A stretch of 21,445 bases of DNA from positions 1-21,445 of the forward strand of contig FN648492.1 of assembly GCA_000310025.1 (NCBI GenBank), in the 5' to 3' direction. Positions 3,564 to 18,941 of this stretch are shown here, piece by piece. The notes beneath the pieces were generated by a model. The model saw only the letters and a program-made list of their open reading frames with translations, ran no database searches and had not been told where the DNA came from. Made by a program: the position numbers and the translations under genes. Origin of the DNA: Ectocarpus siliculosus. Taxonomy: Eukaryota > Sar > Phaeophyceae > Ectocarpales > Ectocarpaceae. Each line of letters opens with the position of its first letter. Position 1 is the first letter of the stretch.

Positions 3564-4183
3564 GCGACCGTCGGCATTTTTGCTTCAACACAACCGTTTT
3601 TTTTCCGGCGCATTCGGCACCTCATGGCGCCAACCTTGGCATTGCCCCAACAGCCCATGGTACCAGCTCCTTCCGGATACCGTTCTTGAGGCAAGTCGTT
3701 CTTTATTTGGCGAGATATCGGCTAGCACGTGAACAGAAGAGCGTAAAAATCACCGCTTCGCGGCCGGCTCTTCCCCTGGCGCCACGTCTAAATGATATTT
3801 CGCGCCATCTGTCTCCTATCCACGTTAACATGGTCGACCCCCTTTTGTCAGTGTTCCACGATAACGCATTTTGATTTCGATTTTCGGCCCGTATCGATTT
3901 TGATTTTCGACGCTTCGTTAATACACGGCCTCATTCTGTCGGGTACGCGTACTCGATCGCAATACCGATGGACACACGGGATATCCAGCGAGCGCAGACA
4001 TGTGAAAAGCATAAAAAGTCTTCATATGATCAGTTCTCATTAGGTTTGACCTGTGTTTTGACCTGAAGTCTCCAGCTACGGTAGCTACGTGCAACGCTTG
4101 CGGTGCTATATAGGTTGTCCTTGCGTCACTTGGGTGTTCTCTCTGCATCAATTGGCCGAGGGATACTGCCTACTCGGGCGACC

Positions 4184-4533
4184 TTAAGTTTTGAGAACTT
4201 TGTACCCCTCTTGCTTCGCTTGTTCTTCATTCGTGCAGTCGGCATGCGAATGCGTAAAGCGAACGATACTGAATTCGCAACCGAGAAAGTCGTATTCCTT
4301 CTTTTTGGTACTGCGATTTTATCGGGTGCAAATTCAGTATCGTTCGCTTTTTACCCATTCGCGTGCCAACTGTACGAACGAAGAGCACCCACAAAGGCGG
4401 ATAGCAGTACCAAAAAGAAGGAATGCGACTTTATCGGTTGCACATTCAGTAATGTCCGTTTTACCCATTCGCGTGCCGACTGCACGAACGAAGAGCAAGC
4501 GAGGCAAGAGGGGTACAAAGTCACCAAAACTTA
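4184..4533. mobile_element. Fold-back element with nested, three-unit inverted structure
   Basis: The left arm (about 4185-4315) begins TAAGTTTTG and the right arm (about 4403-4533) ends CAAAACTTA. Reverse-complementing the right arm reproduces the left one over about 130 bases with scattered changes, including TTTGTACCCCTCTTGC and ATTCCTTCTTTTTGGTACTG. The middle (about 4316-4402) is not spacer: it is a third copy of the arm's inner half, in the right-arm orientation (TTTATCGGGTGCA... against TTTATCGGTTGCA...). The whole could fold as a long hairpin. No coding capacity is seen. It looks like a fold-back MITE that gained an internal duplication. Confidence 0.8.
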
Positions 4534-4774
4534 GGATCCGTCGTCGGTTTCGCCGGCCATCATGATGCAGCAGCAGCACCATGCAGCCCAAACGCGCATC
4601 TCGCAAACACGACCATGCAGCCTAAACCAGTACGCACACAGCAGCAGCGGGGACCCAGGGGAAGGCCAGTGCCTTCCTTGCATATCCTCCACCGAACGGG
4701 ATGAGACAACAAACGAAATTCTGTACACTCCGGAAGCCCCACCAGATAGCTGCTGCCAGCGGTTATAGAGCAAC

Positions 4775-8454: not shown

Positions 8455-8529
<75 letters not shown>
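8454..8529. repeat. GA dinucleotide microsatellite
   Basis: More than thirty GA units, interrupted by GGGC near 8460 and a CC near 8489. It lies in the divergent intergenic region about 1 kb before gene 2. Confidence 0.95.
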
Positions 8530-8531
<2 letters not shown>

Positions 8532-9578
8532 AGCCTAGAGCCGTCATGCCTTACAGTATCTCCGTGGCACAGTCGTGATGTAGCCTATGTACAGTAATCG
8601 TTACGTACCTCGTTTTCCAACAACTTTGCTACTGCTCGTAGAATGAGCATAAGTCGAGCGCTGCAAACAGATCTACCACCCCACGGGAAGAAGAGCGGTC
8701 TGCGAGGACATCTCGGCGGTAAAACGAAAACAGTCAAAGCTGCGTGGAGGACAAGTGTAGAGGTGACGCAGTCATTGGTACACGTACGAAAGTTCGACAA
8801 GATACGACCTGAGCGGAGTATCTTGCTGGTCGGTGTGAAGCAAGAAACCCCAAATGCGGATACGACTTGTCCAAAGACGCCTGCGGAGATGAGGAGTGGG
8901 AAGGAAGTCTTGTGACTATATAGATATCCTCCTCTCTGTCTTCAGTGCTGCACACTCTCTCTTTCCGAGACCTTTCCCCTTGTCATATCTCAAGAAAGAA
9001 AACTGCCAGCCCCCGGTAGTGGGCCAAGATTACCACGACCTAAGTCCACCATCCAAAGAGGGAACCCTGTGTCCCTACCGTAGCTGAAGTGTTTGGAAGT
9101 ATTCAGCCCGAAACAAGGCCATCGAAACACTGTTTTCGTCGGCCAATGAAAACGAGAGGTTGCTTCCGAGTCAAGCGGCCCTCCAGATGGAAAAATTGGA
9201 ACACGTTTTTGCCACCTTATGGTACAGGCAGTCGGAGGGCACGCGTGCGCGCGGAGGGGGGGGGGATCCGTCACCCGTGGGGCGTAATTACCTGTAGGCC
9301 CGGCCGAGGGGTTTCCGCAAAAATATATATTGCCAAACCCCAGTGATGAGGCGCGAGCGTCCCCCCCACCCGCCGGAGTCATAGGATCTCAAAATCTACA
9401 TCATGGACGGGAAAAATTCCATCAGCAAGTGATATCCACTATTTACGCATACTTGTACTCACGACTGCTGTCCTCCGTTGTGCATCGACTGGCTTTTTGT
9501 TTTGCTTGGTCACGTTATTTCCAGACAGAGGACCACAACAACAGCAGCAGCGATAGCGGCACAGCACTCGCGCCCCCG

Positions 9579-12500
9579 ATGTTCGGCGAGGACAGCATGC
9601 GGGAGTGCCCTCTCGAAAGCTCCATCCTCGGGTCCATCATCCCCACCCTGGACCCCAACCCCCCGCAACCTTTCCGCAAGCGCAAGAACGCTTCCTTCGC
9701 TGACGACACGGCTCCCCCCGAAGAGCCGGGATTGAACCCCCCCCTCTCGACCGGCAGATTGGGCGCCGCAGAGGCTGAGGGGGGGGCTCCACGGGATCGG
9801 GCAGGGGGGGACGGCGGAGTGGCAGTGTCAGGGGGGGGGGTTGGTGAGGGCACTGCTGTGGACCAGAAAGACGAGGCGGGTTCGACCGAGGGTAGAGCGA
9901 GGAAGCCTCGGGTTAAGCATGGGCTGAGAGTTCTCGTGCGGGGCACATGCAGGTGTTGTTTTCTGTACTTGCGTTGCTTGACAGTGTTGATATGTCGGCC
10001 GTTTTTTTGTCTTAAGTCGTAGGCACCTGTGTGGGGTGCAATAGACAGCAGCGGTATCCAAGCGGTAGAAATAGTGTAGACATGTACACACGTTCATTTC
10101 ATCCCCGTTGTGGGTTGTGCCCACCTCGCTTTTCAAATTGTGTCGAATCAGCCGTAGTTTTGCTATGTTCCTTGTTGTTCTATGTGATGCCGTGTGTCAG
10201 GCACGGAGCGGTGCCGTAGGTCCTTGGAATCCCACTGGGTAGGACGTGTTGGTATGTTTCGAGGACGTCATTCGGCTTTTTGCAACACGCGCTTGCTGTC
10301 CGTCTTCTATGTTGTCCAATCGTTTCTGATAAGGTGCGGTAAAACGACGATTCTGTGGGACTATTGCCACCGTGCGGCCGTGGCGGGTCACCGCGTGGTT
10401 CTGGTTTGCCTCAAGACCGCCAACGACAGCGAAGACCTCTCGAACCTGCCTCGCTCCATGAGGGCCGGTGGTAAGGGGTTTTCGCCCGCCGTCCCTCCCA
10501 TTCTCGTGCATGCAGTAACGCATGTGTAGTTGTCAATAGTGGAGAGACATTTTGTGAAGCAGCAGCAGCAGCAGCAGCAGCAGCAGGCTAAGGTGTCGAA
10601 CGCCAACGTGGACTTAAGCTTTAGAGTTGTGCCTGATGCTTGATTCTAGAAGTTGAGTAGGCCCACCCAGTACGCGACGGAGTGCGCCGCTCGCTATTTG
10701 TCCTAGCATGTTTGCCTCTCCTCCCTCGCTTGTTACGTTTCACACATTCTTCACGTTTTCTTCCCGATGGACGACAACTTTTTCCGGATATGTACATCGG
10801 TTTTTCTGTGTACTTTCACATGACATATTGTGTGTGCGCCAACAAGTGTTTCCTTGTAGAGCCTTTGTCTTTGCTATCTGGCTCGTGGTCGCAGGAGCTG
10901 CCTCTTTCACTTGCTCTTTAGGTCAGGGCAACGATGCGACAACCCATATCAGCAGTAACAGCAACAGCAACAGCAACAATGTCAACACAACCATACCAAT
11001 ACGTCGACAAGTGCTAGCGGCCCTCGTGTATAGATTTTTTCCGCATGTGTTTGGAAGATAGGCTAAAAGGATGCAGCCCACACCAGTGGCCGTCGAAGTA
11101 CGCTTCACGTATATACGAGGTGTAATTGCCTGTAACCAATTGCAGTGCCTTGCACACGCTCTGTCGATTGTGTTTTCGGCTGCTGTATTTTTTTCATCTC
11201 AAGGGACTCTCATTGTCATCCACACTCAGCACTTTGTGTGTGTGTTGAGCAAGATGCCTGTTTCGTTTCGTGTTTATTCCGCCGCTTTCTCCGCTTCTCC
11301 TAGGCGAGAGTGACGAGCTGCGAGGGTGGGAGGCGATCGCCCTCGGCAGGATCGGCATCAAGTACGTGCGCTCTCGAGACGACCTCGCCTGGTACCTGGC
11401 CAGCCTGCACACGCTCAAGAAGAGCCAGTGGCCGACGGTGATCGCAGGCGAGCTTTATTTTTGCTCACATTAATAATAATGCCAACACTGTGAAGGGCTG
11501 TCGTAGTCGACGGCAGCCATTGACATTGTAACGAAATAACGGCTACAACGCCGGCGGTCCTTTTTAGCGTGATTTTCTTGCTATCATTGGACGGCTAGTA
11601 CGTGTCATTGGTCATCCGACCCGGCGTCTCCGTGCAGCGCAACAGTTTCACCAAGTCCGACCGATGTCGCCGCCGATCCCGGCCCGCTGAAAACAATGAT
11701 TGGCGTCCTTCCTACCTTTGTCAGTCGATGATGTGGACAAGATCATCGAGACATCGGCGGGCGGCAGCGGCGGCGGCGGCGGCGGCGGAGGAGGAGGAGG
11801 AGCAGCGTTGAGAATACTGGCGCTCCTTCAGGACACAGCTGAATTCTTCGACAAGTCGAGAGCCGAAGCTGCTGCCACCGCCGCTGCTGCCGCTCGCGGT
11901 TCAACCGCGGGAAGTACTCCGAACAGAACAACGGGAGGAACTCCGAACAAAACAACCGCCGCCACCCCTCAACCGGCAGAAAGGGGGAGTGGTGGCGGCG
12001 GCAACACCTCATCGCCCCAATCCCAACCATCGGGCAACTTGAGGGTAGTAGGTGGAGAGGGAGAAAGGTTTGCTTGGACGCCAGGCGAAGGGAGTCGGGC
12101 AGCGGACGGAGCGAGACCGAAAGGAGGTGGGCGTGACGACATAACAGGGGAGGCGGCGGCCGTGCGCGTGGTGACCACCTGCTCGACGTCAGACCGGGGG
12201 ATGCTGTCGCTTTATGGACGGTGAGTCAAGCCAGGCAAACACGAGCTCTTCATAGCCAATCTCTTTCTTTGTCCTCGGGTTTTGTCAGTTTTCCCCAAAC
12301 GCGAACGCCGTTACGGCACCTGCGTGGAACTGATGTGTGCGTTGCGGCTTGCGCTGCGTACCATTTTTTTTTAGGCGGAATCGTTGCTGCGGTGGGGGCA
12401 GAGCCCCGTCGGTCACTTGGTTTTCGTGTCTTTGTTTTCCATGACCCTGTGGCTGTGGCTTACACCAGATCCCCTCTCCCTCCCGCCCAAGCAGCAATGC

Positions 12501-13000
12501 TTCGGTGCTTCGATCGATCAATCCGAACTTCGGTCTATGTGGTTGCAAGCTTGTCCGACCGTTCCATTTGACACCGCCGTCGAACACGCTGAAGCCCCCT
12601 CCCCCGGATCACGTGCTCGCCTCACCCCTACCCACTCCCATCTCGTCTCCCCCTCCCCCCGGCATGACACGTATTCCATCCAACCCCGTTGGGTTGGAAT
12701 CGGAAAAGCTTCGTCCACGTGGTTGCGAGGGTGCAAAATACGACCGGGCCGGACTGCTTCTCGTTGAGGGTCGACCCCGGCATCGGCACAGCGTCTGCCC
12801 CTGCCCCTTACCTTCGTCCTCGACCTGCGGCCGCATCCGGGTCTGGAGGGTTCGCCCCGGGATTCACGCCATGGGACGGCGGTGGCGGTGGTAGCGATGG
12901 TGGTGGTGGTGGTGGTGGTGGGTCTGCTGCTGCTGCTGCACATCAGGAGGTGGTGGAGTACGTGCGGTCTCAGATCGATGGGTCGTTTGCTTTGTTCTGA
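9579..13000 (+). CDS. SWSAP1-like RecA-fold ATPase, five exons, 480 aa
   Basis: The exons are 9579-9952, 10334-10470, 11304-11447, 11725-12220 and 12709-13000; phases 2, 1, 1, 2 agree at every junction. In animals SWSAP1 pairs with the SWIM protein SWS1 and supports RAD51 filaments in homologous recombination, in the nucleus. Visible landmarks: an acidic, low-complexity N-terminus (1-110); strand LRVLVR and Walker A GTCRCGKT (122-129); strand HRVVLVCLK (144-152); RIGIKYVRSRDDLAWYLASLH (about 187-207), matching the family's block before Walker B; Walker B TVIAVDD (215-221); helix LALLQDTAEFF (250-260), also a family hallmark; and a final strand region FVHVVARVQ (385-393) followed by CFSLRVDP. 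Poly-Gly runs (234-244, and in the last exon) and a long Gly/Thr/Pro insert (about 263-370) make it about twice the human length. The ATG at 9579 is the first in frame; an acceptor-like site at 9524 allows an upstream exon. Another RAD51-paralogue-like ATPase remains possible. Confidence 0.8.
10471..11303 (+). other. Intron 2 of the SWSAP1-like gene
   Basis: The intron has a strong donor (GTAAGG) and a pyrimidine-rich acceptor (CTTCTCCTAG). It contains a CAG microsatellite (10559-10586) and a CAGCAA-rich patch (10952-10979). No other gene is visible inside it. Confidence 0.8.
10559..10586. repeat. CAG trinucleotide microsatellite (intronic)
   Basis: Nine uninterrupted AGC/CAG units in intron 2 of the SWSAP1-like gene. 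It is not translated in the proposed model. Confidence 0.95.
11448..11724 (+). other. Probable GC-AG intron (intron 3 of the SWSAP1-like gene)
   Basis: The only junction that keeps the reading frame and rebuilds a Walker B motif joins CAG at 11447 to TCGATGATG at 11725. The intron then begins GCGAGC rather than GT and ends CCTTTGTCAG. GC-AG introns are a known minor class spliced by the major spliceosome. The nearest GT, at 11438, would break the frame. Confidence 0.65.
11758..11803. repeat. GGC/GGA repeat encoding poly-Gly after Walker B
   Basis: Six GGC codons followed by five GGA codons give eleven consecutive Gly residues (234-244) between the Walker B strand and the following helix. A second run, of GGT codons, lies in the last exon at about 12880-12921. 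Confidence 0.9.
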
Positions 13001-15921: not shown

Positions 15922-16330
15922 GGTGAGGGAAGAAAGTTGTGGAGAATGCGTCCGTCTTCTCTAAGCAGGGAATGTTCGCGGTACGTGCGGGTCAACGAAG
16001 GCTTGATGTCCCCCTAACGAGGGTCGAGCTGCGTCTTCAAAGCAGTTGGTGCTTTCGTGACGGGCTTCGGAGGGGACTGCCTCATACTGTACCTCTTTCT
16101 TTCGCAGCAAAGGGTTTTTGTTTGCAGAGTAGCGACGACCACGCACACGCCCAAGACTCAACCACCACACCCTCCACCATATCTACCATCATCGTCCCTG
16201 ACAAGGAAACAATACCACACAACAGACAGAACACGTCCACGTTGATGATTCCAATACCAACAACTACATCGATGACAACGGAAACGAACACCGTCCCCCC
16301 CACGCGAACCTCATTCCTTGACGTCAACAG

Positions 16331-18941
16331 GAGGAGGAGGAGGAGGAGGGCGGGGGAGGCGGGCGATATCGACGTCCGCGGTGGGTGTCGAGGAGACGGA
16401 GAGACTCTTGGACGAGAGCGAATGGGCCATCGGCGCCTCGTCTCGGCACTTGGCAGCACTCCAGGAAGATGACGAACCAAGCCACGGGGCTGCGGCCGCC
16501 CCCGGCGAGCTGCTCGCGCTGGTGAGCGTTCTGGAGGGGTATGCAGGGAGAGGAGACATGGAGGGGTTGGTTGGAAGCGGGGATCTTACCTCTTGCACGC
16601 CGTAAGATCTTATAAACACTGCTGTAGCAGTAGTGGGCTACCATCCCCAGTCCTTGGAGATGGAGTGTGTTGTGACGTCATCGTGCAGCCTCCCCTGGAC
16701 AGGTTCCCTGGACGGGCATGCCCTGAGAGTCGGTGTGTGACTCTGACTCTGACAGTCGGGTGTGACTCTGAGAGTCGGGTGTGAGAGGGAGGCAACCTTC
16801 CGTGAGAGATTTACTGTCGAGATCGGGTAGAGAGGAGAAGGGGCGTTCCCATGCCCTTCTTGCCTTCAACTGCACATTTCAACCTCTCTACCTAGGTGAC
16901 ACAAGATACCAGACCCCCCCGGACCGATTCTTGAAGCTCGATTTCTCCGCGACGAATCCAAGATCGAATGATGCCTTGTTGGAAAGTTCTCGAAAGGACC
17001 GCTCCAGCGCCGTAATTTCTAGGCACCATCACGTAGTTTGCTGCAGAGTTTTCGCGCTGTGAAAATCGGTCCCCGGCGTGCGGTATCTTACGCAACCCAC
17101 GGCTGCCCATCCAGACGAACGAATTCCCTTCTCAATGTGAGGGAGCAGTCCTCGACTTTGATCGCGCCCGCTTTTGGTTTTGTGCCGCGTGGTCTGCCTG
17201 TTCGGTCTTCCGCCTGTCAGAACTCTGCTACCCGTCTCTTTGTCCTTCGATTGTACCGTGGCTGGCGGACGATTGGCGTACGTCTTCTGTTGTCTGGCGT
17301 GTGGAGCCCCGTACGTATTATTTTCCCCCCGTTTGTCTGCCTCGTCTGTCTGTCTGTCTGCAGAACCTGGAAGTGCTGGAGGTCTGCTTGCGAACGCTTC
17401 CGGCCCACGAAAGGCTGCGGCTGCCGCACGCCTTGACCGTAAGTTGCCGCACGCCTTAACCGTAAGTTCTCTGGATGATTCGTGTTTCTTTGAATTATCG
17501 TGGAGCTTGTTCGCGGCACCGTGCGTCCCGGACAACCCCCCCCGGCTATCTTCCAGCCAACGGCTGTACTCAGTAGACGCAGGAGGTGTGGACAGAGAAT
17601 GATCCCCCGTATCTATTTAGATTGATATCGCGTTCGAGGAGGAGTCGAGCACTCGCAAATTCTTGTGCGAATGACGTGTTAGGTTTGACGTGTTGGGAGA
17701 GCTTCGCCGTGACAACTAGGGCAGATCGATCTCTTGTGGAGAGTGAGATACCACGCCAGCAGCTCTGGCCACAACCACGAAGAGGCACACGGGCGTGCCG
17801 GCGATTTTACGCAGAATATTTTCCTTTCAATCAAGCCATCTCCTTGCTTGCGCGAACACCAAAGAGCAATCAATCGCCTTGCTCGCCCAGAGACTTGGAG
17901 AGAATTCATCATCGCCTACTCGCGGGTAAGGCAGTCATGGGTACACACCCGCCCTTGGCTAGAGGCGACGCCCGCTATTAGTTTCTCGCGCGCACTACAA
18001 TAATCATCTGACACATGACGAATTAGCCGGGCGATCTGGTCGTCGTCACGTGCTTCATGTCCGCCTCTGCGCGAGGCTCAGACAGCGCTACTGCTGCGGT
18101 CGACGCACAGGAGCGTTGTGCCCGTCCTCTTGTAGGTCCTACCCATGCATCCTATTTTCCCCTCGAGCACCAGACTTGCCGGACGGGCAGGCTCTCTGTG
18201 TTGTCCCCCAACAGACACGATCGATTATCATGACACCAACTCCCCCCCCCCCCTCCGCCTTCGAACACCCGTCAGGCCCAACTGGAGACCCAAGGTGATG
18301 GAAACCCCGCCCCCGGGCCTACCGCCGCGTTACCGGCAAGAGAAGGGGCGGCCGCGGAATGCGCGAGAGCGGCGGCGGCGGCGGGAGAAGGGGGGGTACC
18401 AGAACCAGTACCGGGAGGCACGCGGGGGGGGGACAAAAACGCGGGTCTTGGTGGTCCTGGCCCTATCGCCTCGGCTGGGGCTACCTCAGCGCCCTTAGCT
18501 GTGGTGGGGAACGACGAAGGGGCGGTGTTGGACACCCTGCTGGGCTTACAGGAGGCGACAGGGCCGGCGGCGGCGGGGGCGGGGGCGGGGGGTTCGTGGA
18601 GGGCTAATAGCGGCGGGGGGACGGCAACAACCACTAGCGACGAGGAGAGGATTCGCGCTGCGGGCGGGAGGGAAGAGATCGATGAGTTGCAATCGTGCGA
18701 TGACGATCGTGTGGCGGGTCGGAAAGAGGAGGCCGTGCCTGCAGAACCGCCATCATCATCGTCATCGTCGTTGCCGGCACAAGCGGGAGGTGGTACTAGC
18801 GACCGTCGAGATTCTCTTGGCGGTGCGGCGGCCTTGGGCGGAGGGGTCGTTGGGCCAGGCGCCGGAATGGATAGCGGTAGAGGTGGTGGCGGTACGGATG
18901 AGCTCGAAGACTGGCTCGACGGGATGTTGGCCGACGCTTGA
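16331..18941 (+). CDS. AVEN: AVEN-like protein, three 3' exons recognised, 5' end unresolved
   Basis: The exons are 16331-16521, 17364-17438 and 18276-18941 (stop TGA 18939-18941). Both internal junctions are phase 0: CTG|GTGAGC to CTGCAG|AAC, and ACC|GTAAGT to CGTCAG|GCC. Animal AVEN binds Bcl-xL and Apaf-1 to restrain apoptosis, activates ATM after DNA damage, and has an RGG-rich N-terminus. Landmarks seen here, about 310 residues in all: a Gly/Arg-rich start (GGRGRRA); LLDESEWAI, like the family's acidic segment with a Trp; GELLAL joined across the intron to NLEVLEVCLRTLPAHERLRL, matching the central Leu-rich domain; a long Ala/Gly/Pro insert; AVLDTLLGLQ, like the family's second acidic-Leu motif; and a C-terminus with ELEDWLDGML, the AVEN signature ending. 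No in-frame ATG precedes the first exon, so at least one 5' exon is missing. Plants and algae lack the classical apoptosis partners, so the ancestral role may be in damage signalling or RNA binding. The sequence does not show which. Confidence 0.78.
16725..16785 (+). repeat. Short imperfect tandem repeat
   Basis: Three copies of GA(G/C)AGTCGG followed by GTGTGA begin near 16725, 16751 and 16770, linked by CTCTGA units. They lie inside the AVEN-like intron. Confidence 0.75.
16895..17097. mobile_element. MITE-like inverted-repeat element, copy A
   Basis: The left end (GTGACACAAGATACC...GGACCGATTCTTG) is an inverted, imperfect copy of the right end (GAAAATCGGTCC...GGTATCTTACGCAAC). Arms are about 40 bases and the total is about 200. 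The same family recurs at 20077-20297. No protein is encoded. Exact borders and target duplication could not be settled. Confidence 0.7.
17417..17463 (+). repeat. 23-bp tandem duplication carrying the splice donor
   Basis: TGCCGCACGCCTTGACCGTA (17421-17440) and its continuation AGT are repeated immediately as TGCCGCACGCCTTAACCGTA plus AGT, with one G-to-A change. The exon end and its GTAAGT donor are therefore present twice, 23 bases apart. Confidence 0.9.
17439..18275 (+). other. Last intron of the AVEN-like gene
   Basis: It runs from GTAAGT at 17439 to CCCGTCAG at 18275, with a very C-rich tract (18242-18260) before the acceptor. No other exon is supported inside it; small frames near 17586-18003 have no partner phases. 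Confidence 0.65.

Follow-up and report, generated by a model that had tools for sequence, protein, structure and literature searches.

A five-exon gene on the plus strand of contig FN648492.1 of the brown alga Ectocarpus siliculosus (assembly GCA_000310025.1) probably encodes a divergent SWSAP1-type RAD51 paralog, and would be an addition to the known family. The gene lies within positions 1 to 21,445 of the forward strand of this contig; this whole stretch of 21,445 nucleotides is referred to below as the window. An earlier reading of the letters alone (the sequence-only reading) had described the gene as a SWSAP1-like recombination ATPase. The protein has Walker A and Walker B motifs, resembles human SWSAP1 from end to end once two inserts are trimmed, and forms with human SWSAP1 a joint profile that ranks six of seven RecA-class proteins highest.

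Gene structure and splicing

The gene runs from an ATG at 9579 to a stop codon ending at 13000. Its five exons (Table 1) give a spliced length of 1443 nt and 480 amino acids without internal stops, and the introns of 381, 833, 277 and 488 bp have phases 2, 1, 1 and 2. There is no upstream ATG for exon 1 within its open frame (9288-10022). The sequence-only reading was correct about the gene, including its coordinates, the consistent phases and the exact start and stop. The order of motifs that it gave was also borne out by the spliced translation: Walker A (GTCRCGKT, residues 122-129, across intron 1), the RIGIKYV...YLASLH block (LGRIGIKYVRSRDDLAWYLASLHT, 184-207), Walker B (VIAVDD, 216-221, across intron 3) and LALLQDTAEFF (250-260).

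The chance that the joined frame would be open at the base composition of the window is about 2e-9, an approximate value that takes no account of the latitude in choosing splice sites. The G+C content was 0.63-0.67 in exons versus 0.49-0.57 in introns, and the T content 0.13-0.24 versus 0.27-0.35. At third codon positions, G+C lay at 0.73-0.90 in exons 1-3 and dropped to 0.59 in exons 4 and 5. When the window was read in six frames without splicing, the pattern GxxxxGK[ST] had one match elsewhere, broken by a stop; the gene's own Walker A is present only after splicing. Triplet arrays of CGG and GGT units at 11755-11788 and 12881-12921 code for Gly tracts of the protein, one of which lies in the ATPase core directly behind Walker B.

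Table 1. Exons of the candidate SWSAP1-like gene, and its intron with a GC donor. Positions are those of the window.
Feature	Position	Strand	Content
Exon 1	9579..9952	+	Residues 1-124 plus 2 bases; N-terminal part containing low-complexity stretches, followed by HGLRVLVRGTC (first strand, beginning of Walker A)
Exon 2	10334..10470	+	CGKT, which completes Walker A; WDYC 133-136 (aligned with human FxxA); DLSNLP 159-164 (aligned with human PLQSMP)
Exon 3	11304..11447	+	LGRIGIKYVRSRDDLAWYLASLHT block at 11342-11413; VIA (first half of Walker B)
Intron 3	11448..11724	+	GC-AG: CAG|GCGAGC ... TTTGTCAG|TC; the join completes Walker B VIAVDD
Exon 4	11725..12220	+	Walker B D220 (11727-11729), Gly-rich insert, LALLQDTAEFF (11817-11849, helix-like), long insert, VRVVTTCSTSDRGMLSLYGR from 12162
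Exon 5	12709..13000	+	FVHVVARVQNTTGPDCFSLRV (12709-12772), Gly-rich C-terminus, stop; weak acceptor

Introns 1, 2 and 4 start with GT, whereas intron 3 starts with the rare donor of a GC-AG intron and ends in a pyrimidine-rich acceptor (CCTACCTTTGTCAG). The textbook Walker B V-I-A-V-D-D is obtained only by this GC-AG join. We accept the join, given that the halves of the motif come from two separate exon ends. A canonical in-phase GT-AG alternative for intron 3, from GT 11438 to AG 11741, deletes the nine residues VIAVDDVDK and hence Walker B; an isoform without Walker B, spliced in this way, is possible. The acceptor of exon 5 at 12708 (TCGGAAAAG) lacks a pyrimidine tract. An alternative in-phase acceptor at 12729 would drop FVHVVAR, a seven-residue piece aligned with human SWSAP1.

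Resemblance to human SWSAP1

SWSAP1 (SWS1-associated protein 1) is a small ATPase and a divergent RAD51 paralog of the Shu complex that assists RAD51 filament formation in mammals. A single human SWSAP1 sequence served as the reference. It is a reconstructed sequence and agrees with the anchors given in the literature, namely 229 residues, K18, F23, A26, PLQSMP at 44-49 and D96 (PMC6440994, PMC12167799). Four other human proteins, reconstructed likewise, were exact when compared with PDB chains, save 2 of the 376 residues of RAD51C. For the comparison we used a trimmed core of 184 amino acids, consisting of residues 115-408 minus 110 residues (15 from the Gly-rich insert and 95 from the second insert) that are mostly, not wholly, of low complexity.

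With BLASTP, the trimmed core matched residues 5-187 of human SWSAP1 end to end, with 25% identity and 31.6 bits (expectation value, E, of 3e-6 for that single comparison). Its Smith-Waterman score was 79, compared to a shuffle mean of 28.4, and none of 5000 shuffles reached this score. These scores are somewhat favoured, because the cuts were chosen by eye with SWSAP1 in mind. The contiguous, untrimmed stretch of residues 116-262 scored 60, which was likewise reached by none of 5000 shuffles.

Walker A, Walker B, a strand-helix block of the form LxxIxxxYxxSxxxLxxxLxSxH and an ALLxDTAxxF stretch are shared with human SWSAP1, and all are collinear. K128 in Walker A is aligned with human K18, and VIAVD220D in Walker B with human LLLLD96G, the latter alignment depending on the GC-AG intron. 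In the same alignment to the one SWSAP1 sequence, LGRIGIKYVRSRDDLAWYLASLH is aligned to LQKIRFQYPPSTRELFRLLCSAH and LALLQDTAEFF to human IALLLDTAAHF. The two proteins differ in length (480 versus 229 amino acids), and the algal gene has two core inserts, long low-complexity tails and four introns. Moreover, WDYC stands here for FAAA and DLSNLP for PLQSMP, the second RAD51-binding motif of the human protein; in the latter, two of six residues are identical and one is an M/L exchange.

The control panel consisted of 49 proteins: SWSAP1, human RAD51, RAD51C, RAD51D and XRCC2, and 44 Escherichia coli proteins hand-picked from 83 coding sequences of nine regions; RAD51B and XRCC3 were left out. Against the trimmed core SWSAP1 had the top rank of the 49, at z about 12; against the untrimmed stretch it came second, at z 6.7. 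RAD51, RAD51C, RAD51D and XRCC2 had z values below 1.1, with pairwise scores at shuffle level. The RecA-class proteins RadA/Sms and DnaB reached 1.5-1.9, and the unrelated enzymes PurN and TyrB 2.1-3.0 in at least one run. For the trimmed core, the AAA+, STAND and SIMIBI proteins of the panel did not reach 0.7; for the untrimmed stretch, two AAA+ proteins rose to 1.3 and 1.9.

Profile comparisons

A joint profile was made from the gene's core and human SWSAP1, and ranked over the 48 other panel proteins, 32 of which were listed. Its first six places were taken by RAD51D, RadA/Sms, XRCC2, DnaB, RAD51 and RecA, while the seventh RecA-class member, RAD51C, came 20th. By comparison, SWSAP1 alone placed the seven RecA-class proteins at 1, 2, 10, 12, 16, 17 and 25, and the core alone placed five of them at 2, 3, 8, 12 and 16, with two unlisted. 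None of five profiles with a shuffled core filled the first six places with RecA-class proteins. When the core was combined with 17 other partners, RecA-class partners raised RecA-class proteins; RuvB as partner put RAD51D first (6.5 bits), and with MinD the first places went to RecA (1.5 bits) and DnaB (0.1 bits). Because the scores of the joint profile are low (2-8 bits), it is the ranking rather than the scores that counts as evidence, and this evidence is modest. Read in this way, the joint profile modestly favours a RecA-class assignment.

Against the PDB, the joint profile placed KaiC first, with E 2.7e-4 over profile positions 5-176 (among the best 60 of 61 matches at E <=10). The next family was ArsA (E 0.044, over the Walker A stretch only), and unrelated proteins followed from E 0.1 on. 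At E <=10, KaiC was listed neither for the core alone nor for SWSAP1 alone. The core alone gave three matches at this threshold, none of them a named P-loop protein, and human SWSAP1 gave nine, none of them SWSAP1. KaiC is, like the proposed core, a RecA-superfamily ATPase, and it was matched over most of the core. It differs in being a circadian-clock protein; the top three entries are 490-568 residues long, and the match falls in the second half of the protein (residues 265-422).

Weight of the evidence and alternative explanations

Several observations weigh against the SWSAP1-type identity. The comparison depends on one reconstructed SWSAP1 sequence, and the resemblance fades when the inserts are kept: under composition adjustment the best SWSAP1 piece then scored 17.3 bits (E 0.5), a value that rose to 26.2 bits (E 8e-4) when the adjustment was switched off, and the Smith-Waterman score was reached by 27 of 3000 shuffles. 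With phmmer, the match to SWSAP1 amounted to 9.9 bits for the core, below three chance PDB matches, and to less than 2 bits for the whole protein. The E. coli dehydrogenase SrlD scored 30.0 bits against the core (z 8.2-10.9) and outranked SWSAP1 on the untrimmed stretch. Since an unrelated protein scores nearly as high as SWSAP1, z values of 9 to 12 are no proof, and the pairwise statistics are weak. RAD51D stayed first in four of the five shuffled-core profiles; the RecA signal therefore comes partly from SWSAP1 itself. The FxxA motif for RAD51 binding (human F23 and A26) is not conserved, as W133-D-Y-C136 keeps the aromatic residue but not the Ala. In structure prediction, the exon 3 fragment (47 residues) folded as two helices without a strand at RIGIKYV (mean predicted local distance difference test score, pLDDT, of 76), and the exon 2 fragment (45 residues) as a hairpin of low confidence (mean pLDDT 60) at the place where the RecA fold has the helix after Walker A; fragments of this size are too short to judge the fold. 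Finally, no relative was confirmed in collections of viral, bacterial and archaeal contigs, which hold no eukaryotic genomes. Pattern matches there, all unconfirmed, numbered 11 (core) and 58 (alignment) in viral contigs and 99 (core) and 200 (alignment) in genome contigs. Given the composition of these collections, the searches are silent on the distribution among eukaryotes.

Identity as a short-chain dehydrogenase was rejected. The Smith-Waterman alignment with SrlD omits the Walker A stretch, and Pfam lists no dehydrogenase model for the core; the SrlD match was counted as chance for these two reasons.

A more substantial alternative is that the protein is some other P-loop ATPase, of AAA+, STAND or KaiC-like type, neither orthologous to SWSAP1 nor active on RAD51. 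We consider this unlikely. The best Pfam matches of the core were ATPase_2 (PF01637; E 3.4e-5), nSTAND_NTPase5 (4.4e-5) and AAA_35 (6e-4), and NCBIfam added, also below cut-off, Hda (E 0.088) along with a model of KaiC (E 0.099). KaiC at the top of the PDB matches, and RadA/Sms and DnaB slightly above shuffles, point the same way. Yet all Pfam matches lay below the curated cut-offs (24.2 versus 33.2 bits for PF01637), and human SWSAP1 drew similar sub-cutoff matches (NACHT, AAA_16, nSTAND1, nSTAND_NTPase5), so that matches of this kind do not discriminate; a SWSAP1 model was among the Pfam matches of neither protein. The sequence-only reading had named best profile hits to another ATPase family, such as AAA or SIMIBI, as evidence that would count against it. 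The best Pfam matches are indeed of AAA and STAND type, but since human SWSAP1 draws the like, they do not decide the question. Furthermore, ClpX, RuvB, Hda, DnaA and MalT all remained below z 0.7 against the trimmed core, where SWSAP1 reached about 12, and LALLQDTAEFF follows Walker B as IALLLDTAAHF does in SWSAP1.

Descent from a canonical RAD51 paralog (XRCC2, RAD51D or RAD51C) that evolved fast and lost its N-terminal domain would agree with the first and third places of RAD51D and XRCC2 in the joint-profile ranking. It is nevertheless very improbable: neither RAD51 nor any of these three paralogs showed pairwise similarity to the core above shuffles (RAD51B and XRCC3 being outside the panel). 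Equally slight is the probability that the gene model is an artefact of chance open stretches, or a decaying gene with a broken intron 3 donor. The GC donor, the weak acceptor of exon 5 and triplet repeats in two exons and intron 2 would fit such an origin, but the five in-phase open pieces, the shift in composition at exon borders and the completion of both Walker motifs only by splicing argue against it. Of the readings considered, the SWSAP1-type identity is the best supported, by the first rank of SWSAP1 among the panel proteins when the core is trimmed and by the RecA-like joint profile. It is unproven in that the similarity fades with the inserts, phmmer gives a low score, no relative is confirmed and FxxA is lost.

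Proposed function

As a SWSAP1-type paralog, the protein would consist of a single RecA-class ATPase core (residues ~115-408) carrying two inserts, with low-complexity tails on both sides; the Pfam matches of the protein include no N-terminal RAD51 domain. By analogy with the human proteins, it most likely pairs with an SWS1-like protein with a SWIM domain, and the pair would bind to filaments of RAD51 on single-stranded DNA; in the ATP-bound state it would make these filaments more stable, and ATP hydrolysis would loosen them. A part in DNA repair or meiosis is likewise putative. The human SWS1-SWSAP1 pair is described as an ATPase stimulated by DNA, with a preference for exposed 5' ends; binding of ATP, for which K18 of SWSAP1 is needed, renders RAD51 filaments stable, and their conformation changes upon hydrolysis (PMC12167799). 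SWSAP1 is also reported to protect RAD51 filaments from FIGNL1 (PMC6440994).

The FxxA motif, and its Phe, are reported to be needed for RAD51 binding (PMC6440994, PMC8275761). Binding of RAD51 by the algal protein is putative, because WDYC keeps the aromatic residue but lacks the Ala. An intact Walker A is not a strict criterion for SWSAP1, since in mouse SWSAP1 the GKT is replaced by AQT, and mutants of the Walker motifs are reported to still support repair in cells (PMC8275761).

Evolutionary significance

If confirmed, the gene would extend the RAD51-filament helper SWSAP1 far beyond animals. A SWSAP1-type protein with intact ATP-binding motifs at such a distance would suggest that it is the ancestral partner of SWS1, from which yeasts departed; this can be tested by comparative genomics. 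We tentatively propose, at somewhat less than an even chance, that SWSAP1 is no animal invention, that an ATP-binding SWS1-SWSAP1 pair predates the split of animals from this lineage, and that the algal branch docks RAD51 via WxxC in place of FxxA and carries long core inserts.

Partner proteins of SWS1 are described as diverging so widely among yeasts, worm and mammals as to form only a loose RAD51-like group (PMC6180034), and according to a paper of 2021 no Shu proteins had been identified in plants (PMC8162660). Genes of this kind may escape notice when, as here, introns interrupt both Walker motifs, one donor is GC and inserts lower every similarity score. In a literature search that left some key surveys outside, SWSAP1 and words for alga were mentioned together only in a paper on angiopoietin-like genes and a review of mammalian meiosis. 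An earlier description of such a gene is possible. Some protein databases perhaps already place sequences from plants and protists together with SWSAP1.

Surroundings of the gene

The SWIM-type pattern of SWS1, CxC-x(5-30)-CxH, was absent from the six unspliced frames of the window, and this result concerns the window only. The window had no tRNA or Rfam matches, and none of the 20 open frames outside the gene gave a Pfam match above cut-off. Upstream, overlapping open frames at ~4085-4621 contain THSRADCTNEE and THSRANCTNEE in two frames, which suggests a local DNA repeat, and an (AG)40 dinucleotide array occupies 8455-8533, about 1 kb before the start codon. Downstream on the plus strand, two open frames at 16276-16605 and 18234-18941 look coding, one of them with DELEDWLDGMLADA before its stop; neither has a Pfam match at E <=0.1, and they are perhaps exons of a downstream gene.

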